DNA of 64,000 nt from Paucilactobacillus hokkaidonensis JCM 18461 (GTDB taxonomy: Bacteria; Bacillota; Bacilli; Lactobacillales; Lactobacillaceae), in contig NZ_AP014680.1 in the NCBI RefSeq assembly GCF_000829395.1, positions 620,001-684,000 of the forward strand, read 5' to 3'. Positions 5,005 through 52,206 of this stretch are shown piece after piece. A model generated the notes under the pieces. That model had not been told where the DNA came from, did no database searches, and saw only the letters and a program-made list of their open reading frames with translations. Every line of letters starts with the position of its first letter. Within the stretch, counting starts at the first letter, position 1. A program made the position numbers and the translations under genes.

Positions 5005-6737
5005 TGAACGTATTGAAAAATGATACGTGGGTCATGCCTTATTTACGTAAGTATAAAATGTTGTTGCTATTGGTACTTGCATTAGGTTTTTTAACGCTGT
5101 TTAGTGGTTCTGCCTTAATGTTTACTTCTGGTTATTTGATCAGCAAATGTGCGACGCATCCATTTAATATTTTATTAGTTTATCCGGCAATTGTACTGAC
5201 ACGGGCGTTTGGAATTGCGCGGCCTGTTTTCAGATATGCTGAACGACTTTCTGCGCATAATTGGGTTTTACGCATTGTTTCTAACTTTCGTAAAAAGTTG
5301 TATGATTCTGTCGAATCAACCGCAGTGGCAATTCGTCAAAAGCATCAGACTGGCAGTTTACTGACTTTGTTGGCTGACGACATTGAACACATCGAAAATT
5401 TGTATTTGACTACTGTTTTTCCAATTGTAACTGGTATTTTGGTATATGTTTTTGTGGTTGTTGGATTGGGTACCATTAACTGGCCTTTTGCCCTATTGAT
5501 GCTGTTATTGATTGGAATATTGATGTTTGTTATGCCATTAGTGTCGGTATTGGTTAATGGCGCCAATGAGTTCAAACAAAAGCAGATTCAAAAGGGACTT
5601 TATACTAAGTTAACCGATTCAGTTTTAGGGTTAAGTGATTGGTTAATCTCTGGCCGACAAGCAGATTTTATGCAAGAACATCTGGAGACTAGTAATCAAA
5701 TCTTTGGGCTGCGACGTCGGGACAAAAATTTTCAGTGGCTTCGTGATTTGTTAAGTCAAATTGTAATTGGAATTATCGCAATTGCAACCTTAATTTGGGC
5801 TGGAAAAACAATGACTGATAGTCAAAATGCTGCTAATTGGATTGCTGCATTTGTACTTTGTATCTTTCCATTAGATCAAACATTCATAAACATTGCTCAA
5901 GGAGTCAGTGAATGGCCAACTTATCGTGAATCGATTAAACGAGTTAATGCCTTACCGCAAGCCTCTGACGAGAATGCAGTAGAACAATCTAAGTTGCAGA
6001 CATCATTTGAGCGGTTGGCAATTAACAATGTTGATTTCCAGTACGCAGATGGTAATCAACTTGTGTTAAATCAGCTTAATTTACAAATAAAGGCGGGAGA
6101 AAAAATTGCGCTGCTGGGACCGAGTGGAACCGGGAAAAGTACGCTATTAAAATTAATTTTAGGGGATGAACTACCAACTAATGGTTCAATTCAAATCAAT
6201 GGTATCAGTATTGATCGACTTCAATCTGAACGAGCTAATTTATTTGGCGTTTTGGATCAACAGCCATACCTGTTTGATACATCAATTTTAAATAATATTC
6301 GGTTGGGAAATTTATCGGCAACTGAAGAACAAGTTCGTGCAGTATTAGAAGAGGTAGAATTGACCCCGTTGATTGATAGCTTGCCCGCTGGCTTGCATAC
6401 ACAAGTGCAAGAAGCAGGAACTCGGTTCTCTGGCGGGGAACAACAACGGCTAGCATTAGCCCGTATTTTGTTGCAAGATACACCAATTATTATTTTGGAT
6501 GAGCCAACTGTAGCGCTAGATCCGATTACTGAACAGCATCTGTTAAAAACGATTTTCAAGGTACTGGAAGATAAAACAGTTATCTGGGTTACACATCATT
6601 TGGTGGGAATTAACTATGTTGATCAGGTCCGCTTTATTGAGCATGGCCAATTTGATATGAGCGGCACACCGCAAGAGTTGTACGCTAATAGTGAGAGATT
6701 TAAGAGATTGTATGAAATGGATCGAGGAAGAGTGTGA
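5004..6737 (+). CDS. cydC: Thiol reductant ABC exporter subunit CydC
   Basis: 577 residues, partner of CydD. An N-terminal membrane domain (to about residue 310) is followed by an ATPase domain with Walker A GPSGTGKST, signature FSGGEQQRLALAR and Walker B IIILDEPT. The start ATG at 5004 shares a base with the cydD stop and is preceded by GGAGGTGGG. The last codons (Arg-Val-stop) lie inside a palindromic repeat that starts at 6731, so the repeat provides this gene's stop codon. Completes cydABDC. Confidence 0.95.
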   Translation: MNVLKNDTWVMPYLRKYKMLLLLVLALGFLTLFSGSALMFTSGYLISKCATHPFNILLVYPAIVLTRAFGIARPVFRYAERLSAHNWVLRIVSNFRKKLYDSVESTAVAIRQKHQTGSLLTLLADDIEHIENLYLTTVFPIVTGILVYVFVVVGLGTINWPFALLMLLLIGILMFVMPLVSVLVNGANEFKQKQIQKGLYTKLTDSVLGLSDWLISGRQADFMQEHLETSNQIFGLRRRDKNFQWLRDLLSQIVIGIIAIATLIWAGKTMTDSQNAANWIAAFVLCIFPLDQTFINIAQGVSEWPTYRESIKRVNALPQASDENAVEQSKLQTSFERLAINNVDFQYADGNQLVLNQLNLQIKAGEKIALLGPSGTGKSTLLKLILGDELPTNGSIQINGISIDRLQSERANLFGVLDQQPYLFDTSILNNIRLGNLSATEEQVRAVLEEVELTPLIDSLPAGLHTQVQEAGTRFSGGEQQRLALARILLQDTPIIILDEPTVALDPITEQHLLKTIFKVLEDKTVIWVTHHLVGINYVDQVRFIEHGQFDMSGTPQELYANSERFKRLYEMDRGRV

Positions 6738-6854
6738 GCAGGCCCGCTAAGGAGTCGTAGGCTAAGGCCAAGCCGAGCATTGATAAATCGGTCTTTGATT
6801 TATTGATGCTCGGCTTGGCCTTAGCCCTAGACCCCTGGGCCTGCGAACACGTTT
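6731..6854 (+). repeat. Palindromic element, copy A, overlapping the cydC stop
   Basis: Left arm AGTGTGAGCAGGCCC and right arm GGGCCTGCGAACACG enclose a second helix (TAGGCTAAGGCCAAGCC with GGCTTGGCCTTAGCC) and an A/T-rich tip; it ends in GTTT. In the outer stem, GA faces GA between GTGT/ACAC and GC/GC pairs; further in, GTA faces CTA. Probable terminator of the cyd operon and one member of a dispersed family. Confidence 0.85.
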
Positions 6855-6898
6855 AAAAAAACGTAAAGCACGGTCAAATAGGACGAACACGTAAAAAA

Positions 6899-6938
6899 AA
6901 CGAACCATCGCATTTTTTAAAAGCGATTGGTTCGTTTT
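6899..6938. terminator. Bidirectional intrinsic terminator between cydC and the prenyl synthase
   Basis: AACGAACCATCGC (6899-6911) pairs with GCGATTGGTTCGTT (6923-6936) and is flanked by A- and T-runs. It separates convergent genes and can serve both strands. Confidence 0.85.
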
Positions 6939-6953
6939 GCATTTAACAGTAAA

Positions 6954-7931
6954 TTATTGCTGTCGATGTAATAAATTTTGTGTGAGTTCAATGAGGGCCT
7001 CACGTGCAGGTACATCAGGTAACTCTTTGATCAGTTCTAATGACTCACTGGTGTATTGATCAGCAAGTGCAAAAGCTCGTTTAACCCCACCAACATTGAC
7101 CACAATCTGTTGTACTTGTTTAACTTCATCGTTGGTCATTTTTCCTTTTTTGTTTAATAAAGATTTCAATGCAGCACGGTTAGTTTCTAGTGCCAAAATC
7201 AATGGTAATGAATAGACCCCTTGACGAACGTCCTCCAAAGTTGGCTTTAGCGTATGTTTTTTTTGACCGGTATAATCTAAAATATCGTCTTGAATTTGAT
7301 AGGCTAATCCAATTTTTTTGCCAATTTGTTGAGCATGATCAATTATGACTTGGTCACAGCCACTTAAACGGGCACCTTGTGAACAAGCTAATTCAAACAA
7401 TTTCGCCGTTTTACCTTCAATTTCTGCCAAATACTGTGTTACAGTCGTTTTTTGATTATAGTTAAGCTGCATTTGGTTTAATTCACCATCTAATATAGCA
7501 TGCATAATATTAGCATTGGCGGAAACATCATCCATAACGTAAGCCGACTTAATGACTTGTTTGAAATAAAGTGTAAACAAAAAGTCGCCCGCATAGATGG
7601 CATTTCTTTGGCCATACATCGTGTGAATTGTGGTAATGTTACGACGCAATGGTGATTCATCAATCACATCGTCATGAATTAAGGTGGCTACATGCAGTAA
7701 TTCTAATGCAGCAGCACCGGCTTGTAATTTAACTAGATCTTGTTTTGGTCCCAGTGAACTGAATAAATAAAAATATCCTGGCCGCAAAAGCTTGCCACCA
7801 GCTCCAATAAGCTCTAAAATCTTTGTTTGTATAGGTTTATTTGTTAATGAGACCAAACTAAACATGTAGTTTTTTAAATCATCAAGTTTAACTGCTACAG
7901 TTGGAAAGTTTTGCCAGATTTTATGTGCCAT
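6954..7931 (-). CDS. Long-chain polyprenyl (heptaprenyl-type) diphosphate synthase
   Basis: 325-residue all-helical isoprenyl synthase that extends farnesyl or geranylgeranyl diphosphate with isopentenyl diphosphate. Both aspartate-rich motifs are present: D87-D-V-I-D91 in LIHDDVIDES and D215-D-I-L-D219 in QIQDDILDYTG, and GGKLLRPGYFYL is the usual K-x-x-R-P block. No small-subunit gene is nearby. Divergent from menA, which needs a polyprenyl diphosphate, so the product is most likely the menaquinone side chain. Exact chain length cannot be told from sequence. Confidence 0.9.
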   Translation of the reverse strand: MAHKIWQNFPTVAVKLDDLKNYMFSLVSLTNKPIQTKILELIGAGGKLLRPGYFYLFSSLGPKQDLVKLQAGAAALELLHVATLIHDDVIDESPLRRNITTIHTMYGQRNAIYAGDFLFTLYFKQVIKSAYVMDDVSANANIMHAILDGELNQMQLNYNQKTTVTQYLAEIEGKTAKLFELACSQGARLSGCDQVIIDHAQQIGKKIGLAYQIQDDILDYTGQKKHTLKPTLEDVRQGVYSLPLILALETNRAALKSLLNKKGKMTNDEVKQVQQIVVNVGGVKRAFALADQYTSESLELIKELPDVPAREALIELTQNLLHRQQ

Positions 7932-8021
7932 TTTGTTACCTCGAAGTGAGAATTTATATTCTAACGATACAAATAACTGTAAGCCTTGTCAATCTTATTT
8001 ATTATATGGAGGAACTTTATT

Positions 8022-11626: not shown

Positions 11627-13864
11627 GTGGCAAGCCAAGCATTATTAACAGGAATGAATGATAAACAACAAGAAGCCGTTTTGCATACCGAGGGGCCGCT
11701 ATTAGTGATGGCTGGTGCGGGCTCTGGTAAAACACGTGTGCTGACTCATCGAATTGCATATTTGATTGAGGAAAAAGACGTCAATCCATGGAATGTATTA
11801 GCAATTACATTTACCAATAAAGCAGCAAAAGAAATGCGGTTGCGGGTGGCAAAGTTATTGGATGAGGGAGCGCGTGACGTGTGGGTTTCAACTTTCCATG
11901 CGCTATGTGTCCGAATCCTACGACGTGATATTGAACAAATTGGTTATAACCGGGCGTTCACAATTGCTGATACGAGTGAACAGCGGACATTAATTAAACG
12001 TGTGTGCATTGATTTAAACGTGGATTCTAAAAAATATGATCCACGGGCCTTATTAGGCGCCATTTCTAACGCTAAAAACGAACTGAAAACACCAGCTGAC
12101 TACGCTAAATCAGCTAGCAGTCCGTTTGAAGAAGTCGTTGCTAAAGTTTATAAGGAATATCAAAAGGGCTTACGGTCAAATCAGGCCGTCGATTTTGATG
12201 ATCTAATCATGTTAACAATTGAGTTGTTTGAGCAAAGCCCAGAGACTCTCAGTTTTTATCAGAATAAGTTTCACTATATTCATGTGGATGAATATCAAGA
12301 TACCAATGATGCACAGTATAAATTGGTTAATTTATTGGCTAAGCAATTCCGAAATTTATGTGTTGTCGGGGATGCAGATCAAAGCATCTATGGCTGGCGT
12401 GGTGCTAACATGGATAACATTTTAAACTTCGAACATGATTATCCAGACGCCAAAACGGTGATGTTGGAGCAAAATTATCGTTCTACGCAAACCATTTTGG
12501 ACGCTGCCAATGAAGTGATTGAAAATAATATGTATCGTCGCAAGAAAAATTTGTGGACTCAAAATGGCGAAGGTGAACCGATTTCATATTATCGGGCGCA
12601 AAGCGAAAATGATGAGGCCCACTTTGTTGTGTCAAAAATTAACGAAGAAATCAAAGAACATAATTTAAATTACAATGATTTCGCTGTCCTTTACCGGACC
12701 AACGCCCAATCGCGTACCATTGAAGAAACATTTTTGAAAGCAAATGTGCCGTATACAATGGTCGGAGGACATAAATTTTACGATCGAAAAGAAATTCGTG
12801 ATGTTCTATCTTACCTGACGCTCCTAGTTAATCCGGACGATTCGATTAGTTTTGAACGAGTTGTTAATGAACCGAAACGTGGAATTGGAACTAGCAGTAT
12901 CGATAAATTACGAGCATTTGCACAAGAACATGATTGGTCATTGCTTGAAGCTGCGCGCAACGTTTCAATTAACAATGAATTAACGAGCCGTGCTCGAAAT
13001 AAAATTGAGGAGTTTGGTTTCCTGATTGGCGATTTAACTAAAATGGTTGAATTTTTATCAGTGACGGAATTAACTGAACAAATTTTAGAAAAATCAGGCT
13101 ATTTAACCGTTCTAAAGGCCAATAAAAATTTAGAATCACAATCGCGCCAAGAAAACTTGGAAGAATTTATGTCAGTAACCAAAGAGTACGACGATGCTCA
13201 CAAAGATGATGAAGTTGAATCAAATGCTAATAAGATTACGGACTTTTTGGCTGACTTAGCATTGGTTTCTGCGCAAGATGACGTTGACGAAGAAACTGCT
13301 GCGGTGACTTTAATGACATTGCATGCGGCTAAGGGATTGGAATTTCCAGTGGTCTTTTTGATGGGCCTAGAGGAGGGCATTTTCCCATTATCACGTGCAA
13401 TTATGGAAGATGATGAATTGGAAGAAGAACGACGCTTAGCTTACGTTGGAATTACGCGCGCTAAACGGAAACTTTATTTATCAAATGCCTATTCACGGAT
13501 GCTTTATGGGCGACGCCAAAATAATCAGGCTTCGCGCTTTGTTGAGGAAATTAATCCTGACTTAATCCACGTTGAAAACGAAAACGCAGCTGCCATTCCC
13601 CATACACGTCAAGTTCCATTTGCACATAAGAATGCGACTGCAACGACGTATAAGCGGCCCGCACAACCAGTCCAGCAAAATACTGGGACGGGTGCTGATA
13701 AGCAAAGCTGGAAGACCGGTGATAAAGTCGACCATAAAAAGTGGGGCCAAGGCACGGTAGTCAAAGTTACTGGTGCAGGTGAAAATATGGAACTAGATAT
13801 TGCCTTTCCAGAACAGGGAATCAAGCGACTGTTGGCCAGCTTTGCACCAATTACAAAGGCATAG
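11627..13864 (+). CDS. pcrA: ATP-dependent 3'-5' DNA helicase PcrA (UvrD family)
   Basis: 745-residue superfamily 1A helicase for repair and plasmid/rolling-circle replication. Walker A AGAGSGKTR (about residue 31), motif Ia TFTNKAAKEM, Walker B HVDEYQDTN, motif III VVGDADQSIYGWRGA, LEQNYRST and C-terminal LMTLHAAKGLEFPVVF and YVGITRAKR are all present, with the C-terminal PcrA tail (KWGQGTVV) that contacts RNA polymerase. Start GTG 11627 behind AGAGGGG; the ATG at 11620 is in another frame and stops early. First gene of the conserved pcrA-ligA-camS order; two palindromic elements separate it from ligA. Confidence 0.97.
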   Translation: MASQALLTGMNDKQQEAVLHTEGPLLVMAGAGSGKTRVLTHRIAYLIEEKDVNPWNVLAITFTNKAAKEMRLRVAKLLDEGARDVWVSTFHALCVRILRRDIEQIGYNRAFTIADTSEQRTLIKRVCIDLNVDSKKYDPRALLGAISNAKNELKTPADYAKSASSPFEEVVAKVYKEYQKGLRSNQAVDFDDLIMLTIELFEQSPETLSFYQNKFHYIHVDEYQDTNDAQYKLVNLLAKQFRNLCVVGDADQSIYGWRGANMDNILNFEHDYPDAKTVMLEQNYRSTQTILDAANEVIENNMYRRKKNLWTQNGEGEPISYYRAQSENDEAHFVVSKINEEIKEHNLNYNDFAVLYRTNAQSRTIEETFLKANVPYTMVGGHKFYDRKEIRDVLSYLTLLVNPDDSISFERVVNEPKRGIGTSSIDKLRAFAQEHDWSLLEAARNVSINNELTSRARNKIEEFGFLIGDLTKMVEFLSVTELTEQILEKSGYLTVLKANKNLESQSRQENLEEFMSVTKEYDDAHKDDEVESNANKITDFLADLALVSAQDDVDEETAAVTLMTLHAAKGLEFPVVFLMGLEEGIFPLSRAIMEDDELEEERRLAYVGITRAKRKLYLSNAYSRMLYGRRQNNQASRFVEEINPDLIHVENENAAAIPHTRQVPFAHKNATATTYKRPAQPVQQNTGTGADKQSWKTGDKVDHKKWGQGTVVKVTGAGENMELDIAFPEQGIKRLLASFAPITKA

Positions 13865-13980
13865 AGTGCGCAGCTAGCCGGTTAGCTTCCGTGGTGTAAG
13901 GCAATCATATTGATGGCTTGAATTTTAGCCATTGATATGATTGCCTTACACAATAGGAAGCTGGCTATCGGAGCACGTTT
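13865..13980 (+). repeat. Palindromic element, copy B, directly after pcrA
   Basis: Starts at the base after the pcrA stop. Outer arms GTGCGCAGCTAGCC / GGCTATCGGAGCAC, inner helix GTGTAAGGCAATCATAT / ATATGATTGCCTTACAC, then GTTT. Same architecture as the other copies with a different inner stem. Confidence 0.8.
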
Positions 13981-24967: not shown

Positions 24968-25091
24968 ACACGTGCTCACAGAGGCTGACGCCTAGGGCCA
25001 AGCCAATAATGACCATCAATAAATCAAAGGACAATTTATTAATGGTCATTATTAACTTAGCCTACGGCGTCTATGCGCCTCTGGTCACACT
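24968..25091 (-). repeat. Palindromic element, copy E, in front of rlmCD
   Basis: Canonical orientation is minus: AGTGTGACCAGAGG at the right end, AGCACGTG at the left end. The GTAGGCTAA / TTGGCCCTAG inner pair with its GTA/CTA internal loop is kept. With E' it fills most of the 339-base dgkB-rlmCD gap; unlike most copies it does not follow a stop codon. Confidence 0.8.
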
Positions 25092-25112: not shown

Positions 25113-26477
25113 ATGAAACTCAATACACCAGTTCACAAGAATGAATCACTTGAAGGTACCGTGATGGATTTAACTTATCAGGGGATGGGCGTTGTCAAAG
25201 TTGATAACTTTCCTGTCTTTATTCCTAATGCGCTCCCTGGCGAAGAAATTAGTTATGGCGTTACTAAAGTAACTAAAAATTTTGCCTTCGGTCGGGTCGT
25301 CGATTGGAAAAAGAAAAGTGAAGATCGCGTTGAGGTTAAAAATCAACAGTTCACCCAAACTGGAATTGCGCCTTTACAGCATTTAGCTTACCCAGCGCAA
25401 TTAAAGTTTAAGCAACATCAAATTTCAGAACTATTGCAAAAAACACATTTAGATATTGAAGTGTTGCCAACTTTAGGAATGGAAAAACCATATCATTATC
25501 GCAATAAGGCCCAAGTGCCGGCACGGATGATTCATGGTAAGGTCGAAACTGGATTTTACAAACGTGGTAGTCATCAATTAGTGCCAATTGAGGATTTCTT
25601 TATTCAGGATCCCAAAATTGATGCAGCCATTATTGTGGTTCGTGATTTACTAAGAAAATTCCATATTGAACCATACAACGAAGAGACCAATAAGGGTGTT
25701 ATTAAAACCGTGATGGTTCGTCGTGGTTATTATAGTCATGAAATGATGATTGTTTTAGTGACTAAAACAAAGAAATTACCAATGGTCCAAGAATTAATTG
25801 ATGGAATGACATCTCAATTACCAGAAGTGGTTAGTATTGTGCAAAATGTGAATTCGGCTAAGACCAACGTGTTATTGGGTGACAAAAACTTCACTATTTA
25901 TGGCAAGCCAACGATTGATGATCAGCTGATGGGGATTAACTTTACCATTTCACCAAACTCATTTTATCAAGTTAACCCACAACAAACTGAAAAACTGTAT
26001 CAACGTGCGATCGAGCAAGCTGAATTAACTGGTAATGAAACAGTGATCGATGCATATTGTGGGATCGGAACAATTTCACTAGCAGTTGCTCAGCACGCTG
26101 CTGAAGTGTACGGTGTTGAAATTGTTGAAGACGCTGTAGAAGATGCCAAGCACAATGCCAAGCGTAATAAGATTGCTAACGCTCACTTTGTAGTGGGTAA
26201 GGCTGAAGAACAGATGGCTAAGTGGCAAGAAGATGGGCTAGAACCTGACGTCATCATGGTTGATCCGCCACGTAAAGGATTGGCACCAGAATTTATTGAA
26301 GCAGCTGCTGAAATGCAACCTAAGAAGGTAGTGTATGTTAGCTGTAACCCAGCAACGTTAGTGCGGGATATCGAATTGTTTGCAACACAGGGGTATACCG
26401 TTAAACAACCAATTCAACCGGTTGATCAATTTCCGCAAACTACCCATATTGAAAGTATTACGGTGTTAAGTCGGTAA
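25113..26477 (+). CDS. rlmCD: 23S rRNA (uracil-5-)-methyltransferase RlmCD/RumA family
   Basis: 454 residues. An N-terminal TRAM domain (VMDLTYQGMGVVKV) is followed by a SAM-dependent methyltransferase core: DAYCGIGTISLAV (SAM site), VDPPRKG and the catalytic YVSCNPATLVRD cysteine motif. RumA-type four-Cys iron-sulfur cluster residues are not apparent in the N-terminal half, as in the Gram-positive RlmCD enzymes. ATG 25113 follows AAGGAGAA. It is the usual last member of the pcrA-to-rumA conserved locus. Confidence 0.9.
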   Translation: MKLNTPVHKNESLEGTVMDLTYQGMGVVKVDNFPVFIPNALPGEEISYGVTKVTKNFAFGRVVDWKKKSEDRVEVKNQQFTQTGIAPLQHLAYPAQLKFKQHQISELLQKTHLDIEVLPTLGMEKPYHYRNKAQVPARMIHGKVETGFYKRGSHQLVPIEDFFIQDPKIDAAIIVVRDLLRKFHIEPYNEETNKGVIKTVMVRRGYYSHEMMIVLVTKTKKLPMVQELIDGMTSQLPEVVSIVQNVNSAKTNVLLGDKNFTIYGKPTIDDQLMGINFTISPNSFYQVNPQQTEKLYQRAIEQAELTGNETVIDAYCGIGTISLAVAQHAAEVYGVEIVEDAVEDAKHNAKRNKIANAHFVVGKAEEQMAKWQEDGLEPDVIMVDPPRKGLAPEFIEAAAEMQPKKVVYVSCNPATLVRDIELFATQGYTVKQPIQPVDQFPQTTHIESITVLSR

Positions 26478-32430: not shown

Positions 32431-33906
32431 ATGACAGAACAACCATATGATTTAAGAAAAGTACTTGCAGAAATTAAAGATGACCCCATGCAATACCACG
32501 AAACAAATCGAGAAATCGATCCAAATGCAGATTTAGCTGGTGTCTATCGATATATTGGTGCGGGTGGAACCGTTAAGCGTCCCACCACTGAAGGGCCAAC
32601 AATGATGTTTAATAATGTTAAAGGATTTCCAGGTAGTCGGGTGCTGATTGGATTACAAGCCTCTCGTAAACGGGTTGGTAAGATCTTGCATCATGATTAC
32701 AAAACGTTGGGTCAAATGCTAAACGAGGCTGTTTCAAATCCTGTCAAACCAGTAGAAGTTAAAAGAGAAGATGCACCTGCTCAAGAAGTAGTACACCTAG
32801 CGTCAGATTCTAACTTTGATATTCGTAAATTACTAGCTGCGCCGACGAATACTCCTGAGGACGCAGGTCCATATATCACAATGGGGGTTGTGTATGGTCA
32901 TAGCGTGGATGGTAAGCAAAGTGATGTTACAATTCACCGAATGGTTTTAGAAGATAAAGATACAATCGGTATGTATATCATGCCAGGTGGCCGCCACATT
33001 GGTGCATTTTTAAAAGACTATGAGCAACAAAACAAGCCAATGCCGATCACAATTAATATTGGTTTAGATCCCGCAGTTACGATTGGGGCAACCTTTGAGC
33101 CACCGACGACACCACTGGGCTACAATGAGCTTCAGGTAGCTGGTGCATTGAGAAATGAGCCAGTACAAGTGGTTCCCGGAGTTGCAGTAAACGCGTTAGG
33201 TATTGCGCGCTCAGAATGGATTATTGAGGCTGAAATTCAACCTAATCAAACAATGCAAGAAGACATCAATACAAATACCGGTTACGCAATGCCTGAATTT
33301 CCTGGCTACAATGGAACCGCGAATCCAGCCGTTAATGTCGTTAAAATTAAGGCTGTGACGCACCGGAAAGATAATCCAATCGTCCAAACAACTATTGGGC
33401 CATCTGAAGAGCATGTTTCCATGGCTGGAATTCCAACTGAAGCTTCAATTTTAAGTTTAGTTGATCGTGCCATTCCGGGTAAAGTTTTGAATGTTTATAA
33501 CGCTCCCGCTGGTGGTGGTAAATTAATGACCATCATGCAAATCCATAAGGATAATGAAGCGGATGAAGGAATTCAACGACAAGCAGCATTATTAGCATTT
33601 TCAGCGTTTAAAGAATTAAAAACGGTCATTTTAGTTGACGAAGATGTTGATATTTTTGACTGGAACGATGTAATGTGGACGATCAATACGAGATTCCAAG
33701 CTGATCGTGACATTATGGTACTCGAGGGGATGCGGAATCATCCGCTTGACCCATCAGAACTGCCGGAATATGATCCTGCTCGAATCCGAGTGAAGGGAAT
33801 GAGTTCTAAATTAGTCCTTGATGGTACCTTCCCTTATGATATGCGTGACAAATTTAAACGGGCAGAATTTAAAGAAATTCCGGATTGGAAGAAATATTTG
33901 GATTAA
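32431..33906 (+). CDS. lpdC: UbiD-family hydroxybenzoate (gallate-type) decarboxylase, catalytic subunit
   Basis: 491 residues, prenylated-FMN-dependent decarboxylase. The UbiD active-site region is visible as IARSEWIIEAEIQPNQ followed by MPEFPGYNG, and VDEDVDIFDWNDVMWTINTR is the C-terminal family block. LpdC of L. plantarum decarboxylates gallate and protocatechuate to pyrogallol and catechol. The adjacent lpdB and lpdD support that role over general UbiD ubiquinone synthesis, which lactobacilli lack. ATG 32431 behind ATAGGAGG. Exact substrate is inferred. Confidence 0.88.
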   Translation: MTEQPYDLRKVLAEIKDDPMQYHETNREIDPNADLAGVYRYIGAGGTVKRPTTEGPTMMFNNVKGFPGSRVLIGLQASRKRVGKILHHDYKTLGQMLNEAVSNPVKPVEVKREDAPAQEVVHLASDSNFDIRKLLAAPTNTPEDAGPYITMGVVYGHSVDGKQSDVTIHRMVLEDKDTIGMYIMPGGRHIGAFLKDYEQQNKPMPITINIGLDPAVTIGATFEPPTTPLGYNELQVAGALRNEPVQVVPGVAVNALGIARSEWIIEAEIQPNQTMQEDINTNTGYAMPEFPGYNGTANPAVNVVKIKAVTHRKDNPIVQTTIGPSEEHVSMAGIPTEASILSLVDRAIPGKVLNVYNAPAGGGKLMTIMQIHKDNEADEGIQRQAALLAFSAFKELKTVILVDEDVDIFDWNDVMWTINTRFQADRDIMVLEGMRNHPLDPSELPEYDPARIRVKGMSSKLVLDGTFPYDMRDKFKRAEFKEIPDWKKYLD

Positions 33907-33920: not shown

Positions 33921-34517
33921 ATGAAAAAGGTTGTCGTTGGAATTACTGGTGCTAGTGGAACAATCTACGGGATTCGTTTATTAGAAGTTTTGCACGCAAT
34001 GCCAAATGTGGAGACACACCTAGTGATGAGTCAGTGGGCCAAGGAAAATTTAGCAGTAGAAGATACTGGTTATACGGAAACTCAAGTCAAAGCACTGGCT
34101 GATTTGACTTATTCTGAGCAAAATATGGGTGCCAAAATTGCTAGTGGCAGCTTTATTCATGATGGAATGGTTATTATTCCAGCTAGTATGAAGACTGTTG
34201 CATCGATTGCTACTGGTGTAGGAGAAAACTTAATTGCACGAGCAGCCGACGTGACTCTAAAAGAACAGCGACAATTGATCATTGTGCCTCGTGAGTCGCC
34301 GTTTAACCAAATTCATTTGGAGAATATGCTCAAACTTTCCAAAATGGGTGTGGGTATTATTCCACCAATTCCGGCATTTTATAATAATCCAAAAACGGTA
34401 GATGACATTATCAATCATTCCGTGATGAAGATCTTGGATCATTTACAGATTGAGAATTCTGTTAGTACACGATGGGAGGGATTGGCTCATGCCCGCAAAG
34501 ATGCCCAAAACAAATAA
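33921..34517 (+). CDS. lpdB: UbiX-type flavin prenyltransferase (gallate decarboxylase subunit B)
   Basis: 198 residues from ATG 33921, preceded by GGAGGGG; an earlier in-frame ATG at 33885 lies inside lpdC and lacks a ribosome site. It makes prenylated FMN for LpdC. GITGASGTIYGIRLLEVL is the FMN-binding start; the conserved VPRESPFNQIHLENMLKLS and IIPPIPAFYNNP stretches follow. 14 bases after lpdC and overlapping lpdD by 29 bases. Confidence 0.93.
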   Translation: MKKVVVGITGASGTIYGIRLLEVLHAMPNVETHLVMSQWAKENLAVEDTGYTETQVKALADLTYSEQNMGAKIASGSFIHDGMVIIPASMKTVASIATGVGENLIARAADVTLKEQRQLIIVPRESPFNQIHLENMLKLSKMGVGIIPPIPAFYNNPKTVDDIINHSVMKILDHLQIENSVSTRWEGLAHARKDAQNK

Positions 34518-34947
34518 CGAGATTCCGAACACTTTTAAAGTAGATGTAACAAAAAGTGGTTATACGATGGTTGCCATTTTGGAACGTCAAAATCAAGATG
34601 TGCTGATCCAATTAATTGGAGGCGATGTGCCGCACTACGGGGTTGTGATGTCGATTGATAATACAGGCAATACTGAGACAATTCGGTTGCCTAGCCGCCC
34701 AGGACATGTACATCAGGAAAAGATTCTGATTGAACAAGTTGCTGGCGCCATCAAACCAGTTTTGCAAAATAATGCGATCATTGTTTCTGGAATGCATGTC
34801 AATGATATCTCCACAGAACAGATGCATGCCGCTATTCCAATGGCGCAAAAGTTGGGCGCACGACTAGCAGTTTGGTTAAAACAAAATCCGGTTGATCCAT
34901 TACCGATGAGTTTCGCTAAGAAAAACAGTGTGAACAACCGCGTTTAG
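34489..34947 (+). CDS. lpdD: LpdD-like small protein of the gallate decarboxylase operon
   Basis: 152 residues from ATG 34489, 8 bases after GGGAGGG; the longer frame from 34450 has no ribosome site. It overlaps lpdB by 29 bases. The sequence matches what I recall of LpdD proteins (GGDVPHYGVV, then HVNDISTEQM and IPMAQKLGARLAVWL), which are required for or accompany LpdC but lack an assigned reaction. The final residues (about NSVNNRV) are encoded by the left arm of a palindromic repeat, so the C-terminus was set by that element. Confidence 0.75.
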   Translation: MPAKMPKTNNEIPNTFKVDVTKSGYTMVAILERQNQDVLIQLIGGDVPHYGVVMSIDNTGNTETIRLPSRPGHVHQEKILIEQVAGAIKPVLQNNAIIVSGMHVNDISTEQMHAAIPMAQKLGARLAVWLKQNPVDPLPMSFAKKNSVNNRV

Positions 34948-38731: not shown

Positions 38732-40273
38732 TTATTTTGTTGAACCGTGTTTTCTCTGGAATGCTGCAATATTAGCATATTCAGTTTGTAATTGGCGGCT
38801 CAAACGGATGTAGATTGGTACTAGTTCACGATAGACTTCGTAGTTTTCTGGATTTGGTTGGTAAGTATTGGTTTCACCAATGAAATTCTTAATATCAGAT
38901 AAGTCATCGATCGTACCCAAACTCTTCATTCCCATAACTACAGCAGCTAATGCACCACTTTCAAATGACTTGGGAATTGTAACTGGACTTTCAAAAATAT
39001 CAGCTAGCATTTGACGCCATAGTTCAGACCGGGCAAAGCCACCAGTCGCCATAATTTCTTTTGGCTTACCAACAACTTCCTCTAAGGCCAACATAACTGT
39101 GTATAAGTTGTAAACAATTCCTTCAAGAGCAGCACGAACCATGTGTGCGCGAGTATGTTTACGAGTCAGACCGAAGAATGATCCACGAGCGTTAGCATCC
39201 CAAATTGGAGCGCGTTCACCTCCAAGGAATGGATGGAAGAGTAGGCCATCTGATCCTGCAGGAACTTCGCTAGCAATTTGAGTTAACATGTCATAGGAAT
39301 CTATGTTCATCATGTCAGCTGTAATCTTTTCAGGTGCAAATAATTGATCACGAACCCAACGGAAGACGATTCCACCATTATTGACCGGTCCGCCGACGAC
39401 CCATTTGTCTTTGGTTAATGCGTAACAAAAGACACGACCCTTAGGATCAATAGTTGGTTTGTCAGTAACTACACGAACGGCACCAGATGTACCAATTGTG
39501 ACAGCAACAACGCCCGGATCAATAGCATTGACACCGAGGTTAGACAATGTGCCATCAGACGCACCCATAATAAATGGAGTATCAGTGGGAATACCAATTA
39601 CCTTAGCATATTCTGCATGCATGCCAGAAACTTGTTCGAATGGATCGACCAATTCAGGAAGTTGGTCACGACTGACACCGGTAAGCTCTAATGCTTGCTC
39701 GTCCCAATCAAGGTTAAAAATATTGAACAGTCCAGTTGCAGATGCAATTGAATACTCTTCCTTCAAAACGCCGAATAAACGGTAGAAAATGTATTCTTTA
39801 ATTCCAATCCAGTAAGCGGCATTGTCGTAAATATCTTTATGTTCATTTTTAAGCCAGATTAATTTATATAATGGTGACATCGGATGAGTAGGGGTACCTG
39901 TTTTTTTGTATAACTCAAATCCAATTCCATTTTTTTTATATTCATCGGCATATTTTGCAGCACGGTTGTCGGCCCATGTGATAACACGAGTGATCGGATT
40001 GTGATCTTTATCCAATCCAATCAAACTGTGCATTGCGGCTGAAAATGAAACTCCGCGCAGGGTACCAGTAGTTAAATCAGCTTTACGTAATACTTCAGTC
40101 AATGCATCAACGACTGCATCGAAAATTTCATTTGGATCTTCTTCAGCCATGTCAGGTTGATCTTGGTAAAGTGGATATAATTTATTGGCATACCCAAGCA
40201 CGTTGCATTGATCATCATACAAAACGGCCTTGGTGCTGGTAGTACCTAAATCCACACCGATCATATAGTCCAT
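38732..40273 (-). CDS. gntK: Gluconokinase (FGGY family)
   Basis: 513 residues from ATG 40273, preceded by AAAGGAAG; a TTG six codons upstream overlaps that site. FGGY carbohydrate kinase: IGVDLGTTSTKAVLYD (phosphate 1), MAEEDPNEIF, VTIGTSGAVRVV and a C-terminal ATGGFARSELWRQMLADIF. Phosphorylates gluconate to 6-phosphogluconate feeding the pentose phosphate/phosphoketolase route. Divergent from an RpiR regulator; the promoter carries a cre site inside its spacer and the leader contains palindromic element I. Confidence 0.92.
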   Translation of the reverse strand: MDYMIGVDLGTTSTKAVLYDDQCNVLGYANKLYPLYQDQPDMAEEDPNEIFDAVVDALTEVLRKADLTTGTLRGVSFSAAMHSLIGLDKDHNPITRVITWADNRAAKYADEYKKNGIGFELYKKTGTPTHPMSPLYKLIWLKNEHKDIYDNAAYWIGIKEYIFYRLFGVLKEEYSIASATGLFNIFNLDWDEQALELTGVSRDQLPELVDPFEQVSGMHAEYAKVIGIPTDTPFIMGASDGTLSNLGVNAIDPGVVAVTIGTSGAVRVVTDKPTIDPKGRVFCYALTKDKWVVGGPVNNGGIVFRWVRDQLFAPEKITADMMNIDSYDMLTQIASEVPAGSDGLLFHPFLGGERAPIWDANARGSFFGLTRKHTRAHMVRAALEGIVYNLYTVMLALEEVVGKPKEIMATGGFARSELWRQMLADIFESPVTIPKSFESGALAAVVMGMKSLGTIDDLSDIKNFIGETNTYQPNPENYEVYRELVPIYIRLSRQLQTEYANIAAFQRKHGSTK

Positions 40274-40297
40274 TAGTAAACTTCCTTTCAAAATTAG

Positions 40298-40528: not shown

Positions 40529-41365
40529 ATGGTAGAAGACAGCCTGGTTAGTATCAAGGCTTATTATAATGGTTTTAGTGACAATGAAAAGAAGATTGCG
40601 TCGTACGTAGTCAAGCATGCAGCGATAATTCAAGAATTGACAATTAGTGATTTGGCCAAAAAATGTCAAACATCAACCGCTTCAATTTCACGATTTGTTA
40701 AACATATTGGGTATCTTAATTATCGTGAATTTCTAATGGAAATGCCAAAAAGTACGTATGGTGATGTTTTTAGTGAAATCGAAGAAGATGATTCGGATAC
40801 CCAAATCACGGAAAAAACTTTTAATGGAGCCATTAATGCGTTAAAGGCAACTAAAAAAATGCTTGATAAAAATAAAGTCAAACAGGCCGCCAAATTTTTA
40901 CAGCATACAAATAAATTGAGCTTTTTTGGGCTGGGAGGTTCATCAATTGTCGCATTGGATGGATTCCATAAATTTATTCGAACGAGTTTAGAATGTGAAT
41001 ACCATCCAGATTTTGATATTCAGCTCATGCAGGCAGTTAAATTAACAAAAGATGACTGTGCGATTGTAGTATCACACTCGGGTAGGAATCAACAAACTAT
41101 GCTGGTGGCTAAAGAACTGAAAAAAAGGCATGTCCCGATTATTGCAATAACAAGTTACCCAACTAGTGAACTAGCACAAATTGCAGATGTAGCATTAATT
41201 GCGGTAGCTGAAGAGGTTAACTTCAGATCAGAAAGTATGTCATCATTAATGGCACAATTGACGATTATGGATAGTTTATTCATGATGACTGCAATTTATC
41301 ATACGGATAAGACGGAAAATATCTTGAGAGATGTAAGGGGCATTATGCAAAAGACAAGAGCGTGA
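40529..41365 (+). CDS. MurR/RpiR-family regulator, probable gluconate regulator
   Basis: 278 residues. N-terminal RpiR helix-turn-helix (LTISDLAKKCQTSTASISRF, then VKHIGY) and a C-terminal SIS sugar-phosphate-binding domain (about 110-250; FFGLGGSSIVALDGFHKF and IVVSHSGRNQQTMLVA). Divergent from gntK, hence probably senses a gluconate-derived sugar phosphate. ATG 40529 follows TTGGGGTGA. The last codons, Arg-Ala-stop, fall within palindromic element J. Confidence 0.88.
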   Translation: MVEDSLVSIKAYYNGFSDNEKKIASYVVKHAAIIQELTISDLAKKCQTSTASISRFVKHIGYLNYREFLMEMPKSTYGDVFSEIEEDDSDTQITEKTFNGAINALKATKKMLDKNKVKQAAKFLQHTNKLSFFGLGGSSIVALDGFHKFIRTSLECEYHPDFDIQLMQAVKLTKDDCAIVVSHSGRNQQTMLVAKELKKRHVPIIAITSYPTSELAQIADVALIAVAEEVNFRSESMSSLMAQLTIMDSLFMMTAIYHTDKTENILRDVRGIMQKTRA

Positions 41366-48486: not shown

Positions 48487-48502
48487 AATTATACGAGCCA
48501 GA

Positions 48503-48636: not shown

Positions 48637-48668
48637 TTGACAAATGACAGTGCTGACACTATCATTTG
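48637..48668 (+). promoter_or_regulatory. higBA promoter with overlapping operator
   Basis: TTGACA (48637-48642) and TATCAT (48660-48665) are 17 bases apart. The dyad CAAATGACAGTG (48641-48652) / CACTATCATTTG (48657-48668) has 12-base arms with one mismatch and covers spacer and -10 box, a clear autorepression site. Confidence 0.82.
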
Positions 48669-48682
48669 GATAGGAGTTAATT

Positions 48683-49048
48683 TTGCTTAAATACGTTTAT
48701 TATCAGTCTGATCGTGGTGATCAGCCTGTAATGGAGTTTATCTATGGCCTGCCCCTCAGAGATCGAAAAAAATTGATTTTAACTATGGTAATGATCCAGA
48801 AATTGGGTATTCATAGGTCGCTTAAAAATCAATTTGTTAAAAAGATTCGTGGGAAAAATATTTTTGAAATTAGAAGCAGGTTAGGAAATAATATTCAAAG
48901 GATTTTATATTTCACGGTTGATGGTGAACTTTTAGTGTTAACAAATAGATTTACTAAAAAAACACAAAAGACGCCGATTGACCAGATTAAATTGGCTGAA
49001 AAAAGACGCAGGGTATTTTTAGAAAGTTGGAGGGACCAAAATGATTAA
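48683..49048 (+). CDS. higB: RelE/HigB-type toxin (phage Gp49-like)
   Basis: 121 residues. TTG 48683 behind TAGGAG. YQSDRGDQPVMEFIYGLP, IRGKNIFEIRSRLGNNIQRI and LTNRFTKKTQKTPIDQIKLA match Gp49-like/HigB-type RelE toxins, ribosome-dependent mRNA interferases. Its 3' end overlaps the antitoxin gene by 8 bases. Toxin-first order as in higBA. Confidence 0.87.
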   Translation: MLKYVYYQSDRGDQPVMEFIYGLPLRDRKKLILTMVMIQKLGIHRSLKNQFVKKIRGKNIFEIRSRLGNNIQRILYFTVDGELLVLTNRFTKKTQKTPIDQIKLAEKRRRVFLESWRDQND

Positions 49049-49331
49049 GGCCAAAACACATGATGAATTTTTAGATTTATTAAAAAGTGAAGACCCAGAA
49101 TTAGAATATAGCATCAAGGTGCAAGAAAGAAGAGCAGATTTATCCGTACAGTTAATGGATTTACGTAAACAACGTGGAATGTCACAGCGAAAACTAGCTG
49201 GTAAAAGTGGTGTGGCGCAGTCTACAATTGCCCACATTGAACGAGGAGATGTCGATGCCACTAGTAAAACGTTAGACTTGTTGATGATTGCGTTAAATAG
49301 TAAGTATAGGACCCAGTTGAGTTTAAATTGA
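49041..49331 (+). CDS. higA: XRE-family antitoxin (HigA-like)
   Basis: 96 residues with an XRE helix-turn-helix in the C-terminal half: LRKQRGMSQRKLAGKSGVAQ, STIAHIERGDVDATSKTLDL. ATG 49041 behind GGAGGGACC, inside the toxin's 3' end, giving coupled translation. Expected to neutralise the toxin and bind the dyad in front of the operon. Confidence 0.88.
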   Translation: MIKAKTHDEFLDLLKSEDPELEYSIKVQERRADLSVQLMDLRKQRGMSQRKLAGKSGVAQSTIAHIERGDVDATSKTLDLLMIALNSKYRTQLSLN

Positions 49332-49377
49332 GTTTTAACTATGTTTAGAACTATTAAATCTAAATAAGTAGACGGAC

Positions 49378-49425
49378 AAAAATAATCCTACAAGATTAAA
49401 GGATATAATCTTGTGGGATTATTTT
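49378..49425. terminator. Bidirectional terminator between higA and the GtrA gene
   Basis: AAAATAATCC-TA-CAAGATTA pairs with TAATCTTG-TG-GGATTATTTT; works for both convergent genes. Confidence 0.85.
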
Positions 49426-49429
49426 AGTA

Positions 49430-49831
49430 TCACACTTTTTTAAAGATATACCACTTAGAAAATACGTAGTTAACAATAATGACAATCACGTTATCAATCA
49501 CTTTAACTAAAATGGCATTCCACCCGAGCATTGAAATACCAATATACATAATTATCACGTCAATAATTAAAGTTAAAGCACGGAAAAAATAAAACTCCAC
49601 AAATTCAATGATGAATGCCTTAAAAGTCGTGTAGTGAGACGAAAAGACCCACACTTTATTAGTCAGGTAAGCCACCAGCACTGATAGGAACCATGCAATT
49701 ACGTTAGCCAACTGATAATTCCAGTTCATCTTATCTAAGACTGCAAATACGCCGATATTAACCAGGGTAGTAACGCCACCAAAGAAGATGTAGGCGATCA
49801 TTGATTGATACTTTTTAAATAGAGCAAGCAA
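49430..49831 (-). CDS. GtrA-family membrane protein
   Basis: 133 residues, four membrane helices. YIFFGGVTTLVNIGVFAVLD and YLTNKVWVFSSH are characteristic of GtrA/PF04138, small proteins that flip or assist polyprenyl-phosphate-linked sugars, often with a GtrB-type glycosyltransferase. TTG 49831 behind GGAGGTC, 15 bases after the flavodoxin stop, so probably co-transcribed. A GtrB-like gene starts at 63719 but is far away. Confidence 0.9.
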   Translation of the reverse strand: MLALFKKYQSMIAYIFFGGVTTLVNIGVFAVLDKMNWNYQLANVIAWFLSVLVAYLTNKVWVFSSHYTTFKAFIIEFVEFYFFRALTLIIDVIIMYIGISMLGWNAILVKVIDNVIVIIVNYVFSKWYIFKKV

Positions 49832-49846
49832 AATATGACCTCCGTA

Positions 49847-50302
49847 TTAGTCTGCATTATTAGCTTTAGCGACTAATGCTTCCACGAAAGTCGTCAAGGT
49901 CTTAATATCATCCGTATCAGGTTCCAAATCGATTTTGACGGGTTCGGCACCACGAGTAGCACCGGATTTATCGAATGCTGCCGCAAACTTATCGACGGCC
50001 ACGTTGAAATCATCTAAATAAAACGTGTCACCAGAACCGGCAACCCCGTAAACTTTGCCCGCGAGATCCATTTCCTGCAGGTCTTCATAAAAGTCTAGGC
50101 CTTCTTCAGGCAGGGCCCCCTCATCGTAAGTATAGGGGCAGACCACACAAATATCGACGTTTTCAAAATCACTCGGATCAGCTTGAGTGATTTCGACTTC
50201 TTCAACATCTACATTGAGATCTTCAAATGCTTCCGTGACGATGTCCGCCACGTCTTCGTTATTTCCAGTAATGGTCGCAAAGACTACTAATGCGCTGGCC
50301 AT
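49847..50302 (-). CDS. Flavodoxin
   Basis: 151 residues from ATG 50302 behind AAGGAATG. The FMN phosphate loop is ATITGNNEDVAD near the start, and YTYDEGALPEEGLDFYEDLQ and GVAGSGDTFYLDDF form the isoalloxazine-binding loops. Very acidic, as flavodoxins are. Cytoplasmic one-electron carrier; partner enzymes cannot be read from the context. Confidence 0.92.
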   Translation of the reverse strand: MASALVVFATITGNNEDVADIVTEAFEDLNVDVEEVEITQADPSDFENVDICVVCPYTYDEGALPEEGLDFYEDLQEMDLAGKVYGVAGSGDTFYLDDFNVAVDKFAAAFDKSGATRGAEPVKIDLEPDTDDIKTLTTFVEALVAKANNAD

Positions 50303-50426
50303 AATCATTCCTTCTTCCGTTTCAAATTCAACTCATTCAGTATACCAGATACGTGCCAGAAAAGAAGCGGGACAAAAAACTACGTTTTTGTTGAAGCTTT
50401 TTCTGTGTTTACGAACTTTATTGCTA

Positions 50427-50542
50427 AAACGTGGAAAATAAGGCAGATTCTTCCGCTTAGCTACGATTAGCAAACGATCCAAAGTATGGATCATTCGTTA
50501 ATCTAGGCTATGCTTAGAATCTAAGCGCCTTATTTTCCACTC
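50427..50542 (-). repeat. Palindromic element, copy K, after the lipoprotein gene
   Basis: On the minus strand it starts about 12 bases after the lipoprotein stop: AGTGGAAAATAAGGC with GCCTTATTTTCCACG, then CTTAGATTCTAAGCATAGCC and its imperfect partner, ending CGTTTT. Adjacent to it (about 50366-50395) is another short inverted repeat of the GCGGGACAAAAAA type. Confidence 0.72.
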
Positions 50543-50554
50543 TCATGAATGTAT

Positions 50555-51073
50555 TTAGTTCATGCCACAAGCATTTGGATTATTATTGACCTTGTTATTA
50601 TAACTATCGTTCGGATTATTTTGCATCATGTTTTTGCCCGATTCGTAAATGGCACTGCTGCTTGAATTTCCAGCGTGCGGATCGTTATTAACTTTATTGT
50701 TATAGCTGTCGTGTGGGTCGTTTTGCATCATATTCTTGCCTGACTCATACATTGCACTACTACTGGAATCATTGTTAACTTTATTGTTGTAGCTGTCACT
50801 GGGGTCATTTTGCATCATGTTTTTTGCTGGTTCATAAATTACTGAGCTGCTATTTTTACTGTAACTTGGTTCCGTGGCCGTTGAACTAGAACTAGATTTC
50901 ACCGTCGCATTGCTAGTACTTAATGATGAGCTAGTACTAGGTGTTTTGGTTACCTGAGCACTAGAAATTTGTGATGACGAAGAATTTTCCGATGATTTAG
51001 TATTAACACTAGCGCAACCGGTTAATGCTAACGTCAAAGCAAACAAGGTAGTGAATCCCATAATCTTTTTCAT
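50555..51073 (-). CDS. Ser-rich lipoprotein with three NMMQN-DSYNNKVNN repeats
   Basis: 172 residues from ATG 51073 behind GGAAGGAG. Signal peptide with lipobox LTG-C20, a Ser/Thr-rich linker (about 25-75), then three copies of a ~30-residue unit containing NMMQNDPSDSYNNKVNND or close variants, separated by SSS-x-Y-E-S-G-K stretches. The same motif occurs once in the lipoprotein at 61000-61332. No known domain is recognised; surface-exposed and lipid-anchored by inference. Followed by palindromic element K. Confidence 0.8.
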   Translation of the reverse strand: MKKIMGFTTLFALTLALTGCASVNTKSSENSSSSQISSAQVTKTPSTSSSLSTSNATVKSSSSSTATEPSYSKNSSSVIYEPAKNMMQNDPSDSYNNKVNNDSSSSAMYESGKNMMQNDPHDSYNNKVNNDPHAGNSSSSAIYESGKNMMQNNPNDSYNNKVNNNPNACGMN

Positions 51074-51286
51074 GATAAGCACTCCTTCCATCAGAAATGT
51101 AATATTCCTGTAACATTTCCTTCACCCTTATTATAATTCATCGTCACAGAAATACCACATAATTAGGCTTACGTTTTGGTAAAGATAATTTAAGATCATT
51201 ACCCAAAGCCCAGTGAAATGAACAAAATTTATTCTAGTAGTATAATGGTCTAGTACAGAAATTCAGTTGAAGGAGTTCCATATTAA

Positions 51287-52072
51287 ATGATTAGTTTGAA
51301 GTCACCACGAGAAATTGAAGCAATGAAAAAATCAGGTGCTGTTTTAGCCGGTATGCACATTGGTTTACGTGACATTATTAAACCTGGTATTTCTAGCTGG
51401 GAAATTGAAGAATTCGGTCGTCACTACATTGAAAGTCATGGTGGGGTCGCAGAACAGATTGGTTTTGAGGGTTACAAGTATGCTACCTGTGTTAGTATCA
51501 ATGATGAAATTTGTCATGGCTTTCCCCGCAAGGGATTGATCCTTAAAAATGGCGACTTGGTCAAAGTTGATACAGTGGTCAGTCTTGACGGTGCCTTTAG
51601 CGATTCATGCTGGAGCTATGCCGTTGGCGAAGCTAGTCCTGAAGTTAAAAAATTGATGGATGTGACGCACAAAGCGTTGTATTTGGGAATTGATCAGTGC
51701 GTCATTGGAAATCGGATTGGTGATATTGGTTCTGTAATTCAAGACTATGTTGAAAACCAAAATGGTTATGGGGATGTTCGTGAGTTTATCGGCCATGGTA
51801 TTGGACCCACAATGCACGAAGAACCCAATGTTCCTCATTATGGTGAAGCAGGACACGGGATTCGCCTCAGAGAGGGCATGACAATCACGGTTGAGCCAAT
51901 GGTGAATGTTGGTACTTGGAAAGCTGATACGAGTGATCCAAATGGTTGGCTGGCTAAAACCGCTGATGGCAGCTTGAGTTGCCAGTATGAACATACGTTA
52001 GCAATTACCAAAAAGGGACCACAGATTTTGACATCACAAGATCCTGGGTTTGATGCTAAATACTTGTTTTAA
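51287..52072 (+). CDS. map: Methionine aminopeptidase, type I
   Basis: 261 residues. Removes the initiator Met after deformylation. Metal ligands can be seen in VKVDTVVSLDGAFSDSCWSY (Asp pair), FIGHGIGPTMHEEPNVPHYG (His, then Glu/His region), TVEPMV (Glu) and SCQYEHTLAI (Glu). The Asp-x-x-Asp spacing with DGAFSDS is as in other lactobacillar forms. ATG 51287 behind AAGGAG; TATAAT at 51241 is the likely -10 box. Monocistronic, followed by element L. Confidence 0.95.
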   Translation: MISLKSPREIEAMKKSGAVLAGMHIGLRDIIKPGISSWEIEEFGRHYIESHGGVAEQIGFEGYKYATCVSINDEICHGFPRKGLILKNGDLVKVDTVVSLDGAFSDSCWSYAVGEASPEVKKLMDVTHKALYLGIDQCVIGNRIGDIGSVIQDYVENQNGYGDVREFIGHGIGPTMHEEPNVPHYGEAGHGIRLREGMTITVEPMVNVGTWKADTSDPNGWLAKTADGSLSCQYEHTLAITKKGPQILTSQDPGFDAKYLF

Positions 52073-52080
52073 AGTTAGAG

Positions 52081-52206
52081 AGTGTGAACAACCGCGCATA
52101 GATGGCGGAGTGTAACGGTAAAATAACGTTTATGATGGTCGAATTTTGACCATCATGAACGTTATTTTGTTGTTACACGTAGCCATCTGCGGTTGAGAAC
52201 ACATTT
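52081..52206 (+). repeat. Palindromic element, copy L, after map
   Basis: Outer arms GTGTGAACAACCGC / GCGGTTGAGAACAC (GA facing GA inside), then GATGGCGGAGTGTAACG / CGTTACACGTAGCCATC with a GGA/GTA 3x3 loop, upper stem AATAACGTTTATGATGGTC; ends ATTTT. Its left half is nearly the same as copy G. Confidence 0.85.

Follow-up and report, generated by a model that had tools for sequence, protein, structure and literature searches.

A dispersed family of long, interrupted hairpins that often follow stop codons in Paucilactobacillus hokkaidonensis and other Lactobacillaceae

What are the long palindromes that recur between the genes of Paucilactobacillus hokkaidonensis, and why do so many of them begin where a gene stops? 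The question was raised by a 64,000-nt stretch of the chromosome of strain JCM 18461 (NZ_AP014680.1, positions 620,001 to 684,000; hereafter the window, with positions counted from its first letter). An earlier, sequence-only reading had described fifteen copies of a two-tier palindrome there and had considered termination, a functional RNA or a mobile palindrome as its role. That the palindromes are real and dispersed is confirmed, and the family is larger than first described; the interpretation as a whole is partly supported. We give about even weight to a reading in which the ~124-bp element is a non-autonomous family, dispersed in Lactobacillaceae, that acts as a co-transcribed hairpin at the 3' end of genes.

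A covariance model, R1, was built from eight window copies, and a second, R2, from 150 copies of this and related genomes. The window contains 14 full copies, one degenerate copy and one shortened copy, and folding and searches with both models showed that all fifteen places listed earlier hold an element. R1 detected 13 of the 14 full copies at 76-135 bits, five of these lying outside its training set, as well as the degenerate copy and a 68-nt derivative; the copy at 50427 was missed. R2 detected all 14, among them three (13863, 13987 and 50427) absent from its training alignment. The copies are listed below with strand and score.

6729..6854, +, full copy; a cydC-like ABC-transporter open reading frame (ORF), 5004-6737 (Pfam), has its TGA stop in element bases 7-9; R1 135.2 bits
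13863..13980, +, full copy; the AG of the pcrA stop codon TAG comes from the element; R2 89.7 bits
13987..14105, +, full copy, in tandem with 13863..13980; R2 83.8 bits
17326..17450, +, full copy; the AG of the camS stop codon TAG comes from the element; R1 110.2 bits
24894..24961, -, 68-nt short derivative, most of the inner stem gone; R1 48.7 bits
24968..25093, -, full copy; a divergent methyltransferase gene, 25113-26477, starts 19 nt from its left end; R1 123.1 bits
32293..32410, -, full copy; a divergent UbiD gene, 32431-33906, starts 20 nt from its left end, which lies beside the ribosome-binding site (RBS) of that gene; R1 83.7 bits
34925..35049, +, degenerate copy, right arm decayed; ORF 34450-34947 stops at element bases 21-23; R1 36.5 bits
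38210..38336, -, array copy 4, most distant from the gene; R1 117.9 bits
38343..38468, -, array copy 3; R1 117.4 bits
38475..38600, -, array copy 2; R1 126.1 bits
38607..38732, -, array copy 1, right at the stop of an FGGY kinase gene, 38732-40291 (-) (Pfam); R1 125.2 bits
40296..40413, +, full copy; left end adjoins the RBS of the divergent kinase gene; R1 83.6 bits
41357..41484, +, full copy; an RpiR-family gene, 40529-41365, has its TGA stop in element bases 7-9; R1 121.5 bits
50427..50543, -, divergent full copy, 11 nt past the stop of ORF 50555-51091 (-); R2 70.1 bits, untrained
52079..52206, +, full copy, 6 nt past the M24 peptidase (map) stop, followed by a partial tip/right-arm copy; R1 117.2 bits

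Eight window sites are preceded by a stop codon on the same strand, as many as had been claimed, and this stop lies between 11 nt before the element and its base 23. It ends at base 9 for 6729 and 41357, at base 2 for 13863 and 17326, at base 23 for 34925 and at base 1 for 38732 (-), and it lies 11 nt before the element at 50543 (-) and 6 nt before it at 52079. At 24968, 32293 and 40296 the start of a divergent gene adjoins the site instead. Of the gene names given earlier, Pfam backed the cydC-like ABC transporter, PcrA, CamS, RpiR and map as M24 peptidase; the supposed lpdD ORF matched PAC_bac, the supposed gntK an FGGY kinase, and the supposed lipoprotein, a 178-aa ORF, had no Pfam match at E 1e-5.

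A search of the whole chromosome (2,277,985 bp) with R1, in which 150 of 1474 candidates were scored, gave at least 140 matches at E<=1. In 622,013 bases, consisting of the window and 53 stretches picked for holding matches, 180 distinct matches were found, 160 of them at >=55 bits. A sample of 400,000 bases from match-poor parts (1-140 kb and 880-1500 kb) yielded six matches, five above 60 bits. The genome thus contains at least 166 full copies, including 50427, on a strongly uneven map. Copies often lie together: 22 clusters have more than one full copy, with up to seven copies. Nine of the 160 copies lie inside called ORFs, seven of these in one array. As side observations, elements are scarce near the origin (one in 140 kb) and in a part of ~630 kb opposite to it (five in 260 kb sampled), and seven similar full copies are arrayed with a 132-bp period at G000:C1:1640885-1641800.

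Read 5' to 3' on the strand starting with AGAGTG, copies measure 117-131 bp, typically ~124-125 bp, and the two-tier plan proposed earlier is visible once oriented copies are folded. The left end, given before as AGTGTGA-like, is (T)AGAGTGTGA, two bases further out. The right foot is CACGTTT, a CAGCAATAAAA-like box frequently follows immediately past the right end, and the left flank is A-rich. From the outside inwards, the hairpin consists of a foot GTGT/ACAC, ~8 outer pairs, a bulge of 4 nt confined to the 5' side, seven pairs, a 3x3 internal loop (usually GTA versus CTA), an inner stem of ~30 bp and a small tip. Terminal inverted repeats are present: the foot is paired in 96.0% of cells, with imperfect pairing beyond it. 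Unpaired bases are near-invariant, namely the first bulge base G (1.00, rounded), a G and an A in the loop, the opposite TA, and a G and a T in the tip. Conservation of these unpaired bases suggests that some factor reads the structure.

The stems vary in sequence and keep their pairing. In alignment A4, whose fitting to the structure inflates the pairing figures, 96.8% of 6907 cells pair, against 64.7% after shuffling and 35-41% with slid partners; both-sided changes occur in 47 of 49 pairs (shuffle mean 43.2), in 2085 cells against 563. These figures speak against alignment by chance, raised earlier as an objection. A test free of this fit was made by aligning the left arm to the reverse complement of the right arm, all mismatches being penalised equally. 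Among isolated inner-stem mismatches in 138 non-redundant copies, G·T outnumbered A·C by 124 to 23, and by 43 to 7 after thinning to 45 copies; orientation judged from the ends alone agreed in 160 of 160. A G·T mismatch reads as A·C on the opposite strand, so the bias identifies the sense strand as the strand whose folding counts. If the terminus is placed half-way round the chromosome, the bias is alike in copies head-on to replication (67:13) and co-directional with it (57:10), so that it tracks the element; the head-on copies rule out the replication strand as its cause. In 50 copies from other genomes of the family the bias is weaker (25:7). The G·T excess points to selection on the sense-strand fold.

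The fold was also followed at orthologous sites, in 40 stretches, 35 from P. kaifaensis and five from P. wasatchensis, for the 129 clusters analysed. Upstream flanks were mapped for 82 clusters, two relative sites being mapped twice; 43 had a same-strand element within -60 to +120 nt and 39 had no model match. Orthologue pairs below 0.73 identity were excluded, random pairs reaching 0.71 at the 95% point. In the 11 pairs above this limit, 76 stem pairs had changed on both sides (39 transitions and 37 transversions), 35 changes were one-sided with pairing kept, and 26 had broken the pairing. Sites without a model match were inspected where the gap was <=8, identity >=74% and length >=150 nt (22 of 39). 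By eye, about 13 of these 22 hold decayed remnants and about nine look clean, with no clear duplication; decayed sites in the relative retain a hairpin and T-run, again by eye.

Where does this hairpin sit? A gene end was defined as a sense ORF of >=60 codons ending -29 to +37 of the left boundary. By this definition 94 of the 129 clusters have their left boundary at the end of a sense ORF, 90 with a stop ending at -10 to +23; for ORFs of >=100 codons the count is 87 of 129, versus 4.2% of 4000 random positions. The left foot offers a stop in each reading frame (T+AG, TGA and TAG), and the element often supplies the stop itself, as TAG at base 2 in 33 cases, TGA at base 9 in seven and TAG at base 23 in ten; two further stops end at base 2 as TAA. 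Two clusters lie 5 nt after tRNA-Leu and tRNA-Asp genes, that is, after two of the four distinct tRNA genes in the 54 stretches. In 12 of 129 clusters an antisense ORF of >=60 codons ends close to the right boundary, the offsets being scattered. The idea that both feet regenerate a stop was rejected; the reversed right foot could give T+AA, and none of the 12 antisense ORFs stops there. Among 50 copies drawn from 17 further genomes of the family (two of the 50 from the own genus), 29 follow the end of a sense ORF.

Some elements follow a terminator. A terminator-like T-run lies upstream in four of the 35 clusters away from gene ends (strong at 226345 only; two are also among the RBS cases given below), and copies in relatives were likewise found after strong terminator T-runs. 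As a general rule a terminator directly upstream was discarded, with just 5 of 94 and 4 of 35 clusters having one, mostly weak. At L218 10786-11317 an RNase P RNA gene and a terminator T-run directly precede the element.

A home-made terminator scan, using the first copy of a cluster in sense and the whole cluster in antisense, found a terminator-like hairpin with T-run in sense in 54 of the 94 gene-end clusters. Selection on the sense-strand fold, the position at gene and tRNA ends and this internal T-run hairpin together favour a co-transcribed 3'-end module. In such a module, the sense strand would fold into a single long hairpin with specific interruptions; the majority of copies, at a 3' gene boundary, would presumably be transcribed together with the gene, and the hairpin would end or cap the transcript, by termination where an internal T-run is present and by 3'-end protection or processing elsewhere. 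The stop codon that the left foot provides in every frame could render insertion at a gene end harmless. Expression, the role at the 3' end and spread by an enzyme are inferred; covariation, the sense-strand G·T bias and stop-codon placement support the earlier view of a dispersed family with a conserved plan and a functional RNA.

Several observations weigh against this reading. The scan was also positive in antisense in 38 of the 94 clusters, 40 of the 94 showed no such hairpin, and control gene ends had a terminator within 200 nt in 45 of 101 cases. A stem of ~50 bp far exceeds what termination needs. Termination, earlier called the simplest role, is plausible for part of the copies. As to position, 15 of the 35 clusters away from gene ends stand in antisense, 13-58 nt ahead of a divergent start that has an RBS-like motif. 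On Lacticaseibacillus paracasei plasmid pMGB0245-2 (L236 2479-2629) the element stands reversed inside a mannose/fructose phosphotransferase system (PTS) operon, between IIB and IIC, and not at a 3' end; upstream of a plasmid multicopper-oxidase gene (L238 about 2500-2625, L250) it is in sense and its right end borders directly on the following gene's RBS, as a leader. Gene and tRNA ends are thus not the sole location. As to the fold, outer stems have little wobble bias (33:23), and mutation with a strand bias could contribute to the G·T excess. Two-sided transversions are so many, and intermediates so few, that one arm seems to serve as template for the other, atop any selection; such templating fits the paired changes better than stepwise RNA selection, and both processes are compatible.

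The arms are also copied locally. A downstream repeat of the same element was found for 27 of 160 copies, recognised full neighbours being excluded; the same repeat score was reached by 10 of 160 elements against another's flank and by 19 of 160 own upstream flanks. One such repeat (473132) is a missed full copy. Of the remaining 26 repeats, 24 begin within element positions 43-67, about the left side of the tip, and two begin in the right arm; 22 of the repeats start 16-38 nt past the element, over a locus-specific spacer. In the two examples compared (226345 and 488517), the second right arm pairs imperfectly with the left arm and the first perfectly. An apparent tip-to-flank echo, considered as a pseudoknot, is really this repeated tip/right-arm unit.

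The covariance search of other Lactobacillaceae that the sequence-only reading had proposed gave many matches, as in this genome. With R2, and the best 11 candidates scored per genome, at least 156 of 301 Lactobacillaceae genomes (own included) and 22 of 40 genera had matches. A class-wide sample gave 2 of 121 including the own genome, hence one of 120 others, weakly (best 57.3 bits). Within the genus copy number is patchy: R1 gave 80, 72, 77 and 39 matches in four genomes versus 7, 2 and 0 in the remaining three, with at most 85 candidates scored, and the genome without an R1 match (G002) had three with R2. Limosilactobacillus equigenerosi (L153 276-527) has two diverged tandem relatives with other ends and a similar plan, perhaps a sister subfamily. 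The single copy searched against phages gave no match.

For one copy of the family, from stretch L214, relatives were found on 16 plasmid records of Pediococcus, Lactiplantibacillus and Lacticaseibacillus. In the PTS copy of pMGB0245-2 the right foot lies at the stop codon of IIB. Of the element, a 99.5%-identical L. plantarum plasmid keeps nothing but the right foot and a 97%-identical plasmid keeps both feet; an 81%-identical PTS operon has no trace of it, and on a Pediococcus plasmid the middle of another copy is missing. The scarred sites were rejected as a pre-insertion state, the retained feet indicating deletions. The site upstream of the multicopper-oxidase gene is filled in two L. plantarum plasmids and holds a decayed copy in an L. 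fermentum plasmid, while in P. pentosaceus, L. sakei and L. kefiri plasmids the flanks are joined with no feet, no target duplication and no TA. Insertion is the likelier account of this site, exact loss being the alternative. The mobile half of the earlier proposal thus agrees with the patchy copy number and with this clean filled/empty site without duplication, on which the case for mobility is based; the site favours mobility under several readings alike. The associated Y1 transposase of the REP-associated (RAYT) type that was to be looked for did not appear: PF01797 (Y1/HUH) had no match in the own genome (G000) or in the element-rich Paucilactobacillus genomes G001 (76% complete), G005 and G006. 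Y1 transposases occur in genomes with few or no elements.

In single-strand transposition an enzyme recognises a folded DNA strand, and the element might be a selfish one of this kind, read by a recombinase or transposase through bulge, loop and tip and without host function. A structure-reading enzyme would leave near-invariant unpaired bases and variable stems, G·T would be tolerated on one fixed strand, and patchy numbers in the genus, plasmid copies in three genera and the clean site without target duplication would follow; yet PF01797 had no match in the four genomes, the two other element-less plasmid sites carry deletion scars, so that absence is not always a pre-insertion state, and a selfish element has no need to sit ~10-20 nt from stop codons. 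We regard this account as possible and rather doubtful. A classical miniature inverted-repeat transposable element (MITE) with terminal inverted repeats, moved by the DDE transposase of an insertion sequence, would owe its placement to target preference and selection against harmful insertion. Size, imperfect palindrome, A-rich left flank, intergenic placement and three-frame stops fit bacterial MITEs as described in PMC2229807. However, the clean site has no target-site duplication and none is evident at other, diverged or scarred sites, the ends AGAGTGTGA and GAACACGTTT are imperfect inverted repeats, and a TA-type target leaves the 94 of 129 left ends at ORF ends and the wobble bias unexplained, which renders this origin unlikely.

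Ordinary intrinsic terminators made alike by convergence would explain the gene-end placement and the hairpin with T-run in 54 of 94 clusters, and low-GC Firmicutes have A-run/stem/T-run terminators near stops (PMC1590033). They would not share non-stem sequence and asymmetric interruptions among several genera, form tandem arrays of fixed period, or be nearly absent from 120 other genomes of the class. As a full account convergence is refuted by the shared unpaired motifs and is most improbable; it may survive as the role of some copies. A broader proposal is a family-wide lineage of mobile hairpins addressed to the ends of transcription units, with a stop in every frame, bulge, internal loop and tip read in the folded sense strand by a host or element-specific factor, insertion without target duplication, and arms that rewrite each other, letting the sequence drift while the shape stays. 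Taken whole it is speculative, and we advance it tentatively; if true, it would represent a new class of insertion element, defined by structure rather than sequence and doubling as a 3'-end RNA module. The co-transcribed 3'-end hairpin, spread by some enzyme, remains the reading used below.

Elements of this kind are already known (ERIC-, BOX- or MITE-like), the nearest being ERIC and BOX, both compared by description. With MITEs the family shares a non-coding, dispersed and intergenic unit of <200 bp. For ERIC/IRU of enterobacteria, PMC2229807 describes ~127-bp intergenic repeats, reportedly co-transcribed with neighbours, and an orientation-dependent effect of ERIC on upstream mRNA stability. 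The present family belongs to another lineage and differs from that description of ERIC in stems that vary almost fully yet covary, in stop-codon abutment and in right-half repeats. BOX elements of Streptococcus pneumoniae are, according to PMC3049150, small modular repeats folding end to end with an internal module that can be tandemly repeated, as the tip/right-arm module here repeats downstream of some copies; BOX modules are modelled there as conserved sequence, whereas in the present family conservation is confined to ends, bulge, loop and tip, and the stems are free. Dispersed palindromes with conserved unpaired bases recall the repetitive extragenic palindromes (REP/BIME) mobilised with RAYT, but REPs measure 20-40 bp and are tagged by GTAG or CGTC at one end (PMC3733652), as against 117-131 bp, feet AGAGTG and CACGTTT and a genome without Y1 match. 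The pneumococcal SPRITE, terminator-like and enriched near convergent 3' ends (PMC3049150), and Firmicute terminators resemble the family in 3' placement and in the T-run hairpin of about half of the gene-end copies; here the stem has ~50 pairs, bulge and loop are fixed, and the T-run is internal rather than at the foot.

Rfam 15 at the gathering score gave tRNA only in the window and no matching family, so that the match to a described family that the earlier reading had allowed for was not seen there; permissive Rfam scans (3.4 kb and 66 kb) placed mostly microRNA models on elements, far below the cut-off. Among the titles and abstract openings listed in the literature searched, with most subscription journals outside its coverage, none describes the repeat. 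In the accessible part of PMC4377027 on Lactobacillus hokkaidonensis LOOC260T, insertion sequences, prophages and an integrative and conjugative element are named, and the repeat is not among them.

If the 3'-end reading is right, many 3' gene ends of lactobacilli, including food and starter species, share a structured module absent from Rfam. The module would then provide hundreds of natural replicates, within species and among them, for measuring the effect of a 3' hairpin on termination and on mRNA stability, the rewriting of arms by palindromes, and the way in which a non-coding element reaches gene ends with no enzyme in sight. An integron attC site was also considered, presumably comparable in 3' position and extrahelical bases.

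Four T-box-like leaders were found 24-58 nt from an element, at L214 14582-14910, L216 4804-5168 and 19399-19700, and L222 3406-3751 (35-72 bits, against a gathering score of 93); two further T-boxes (L219 and L089) do not lie so close to one. Pneumococcal BOX elements have been reported in composite with T-boxes (PMC3049150). Finally, the better of two SbcD-like matches, G000:C1:897620-897976, scored 56.5 bits, below the family cut-off of 77.65; if the palindrome nuclease is weak or divergent, this might account in part for the tolerance of so many long palindromes.

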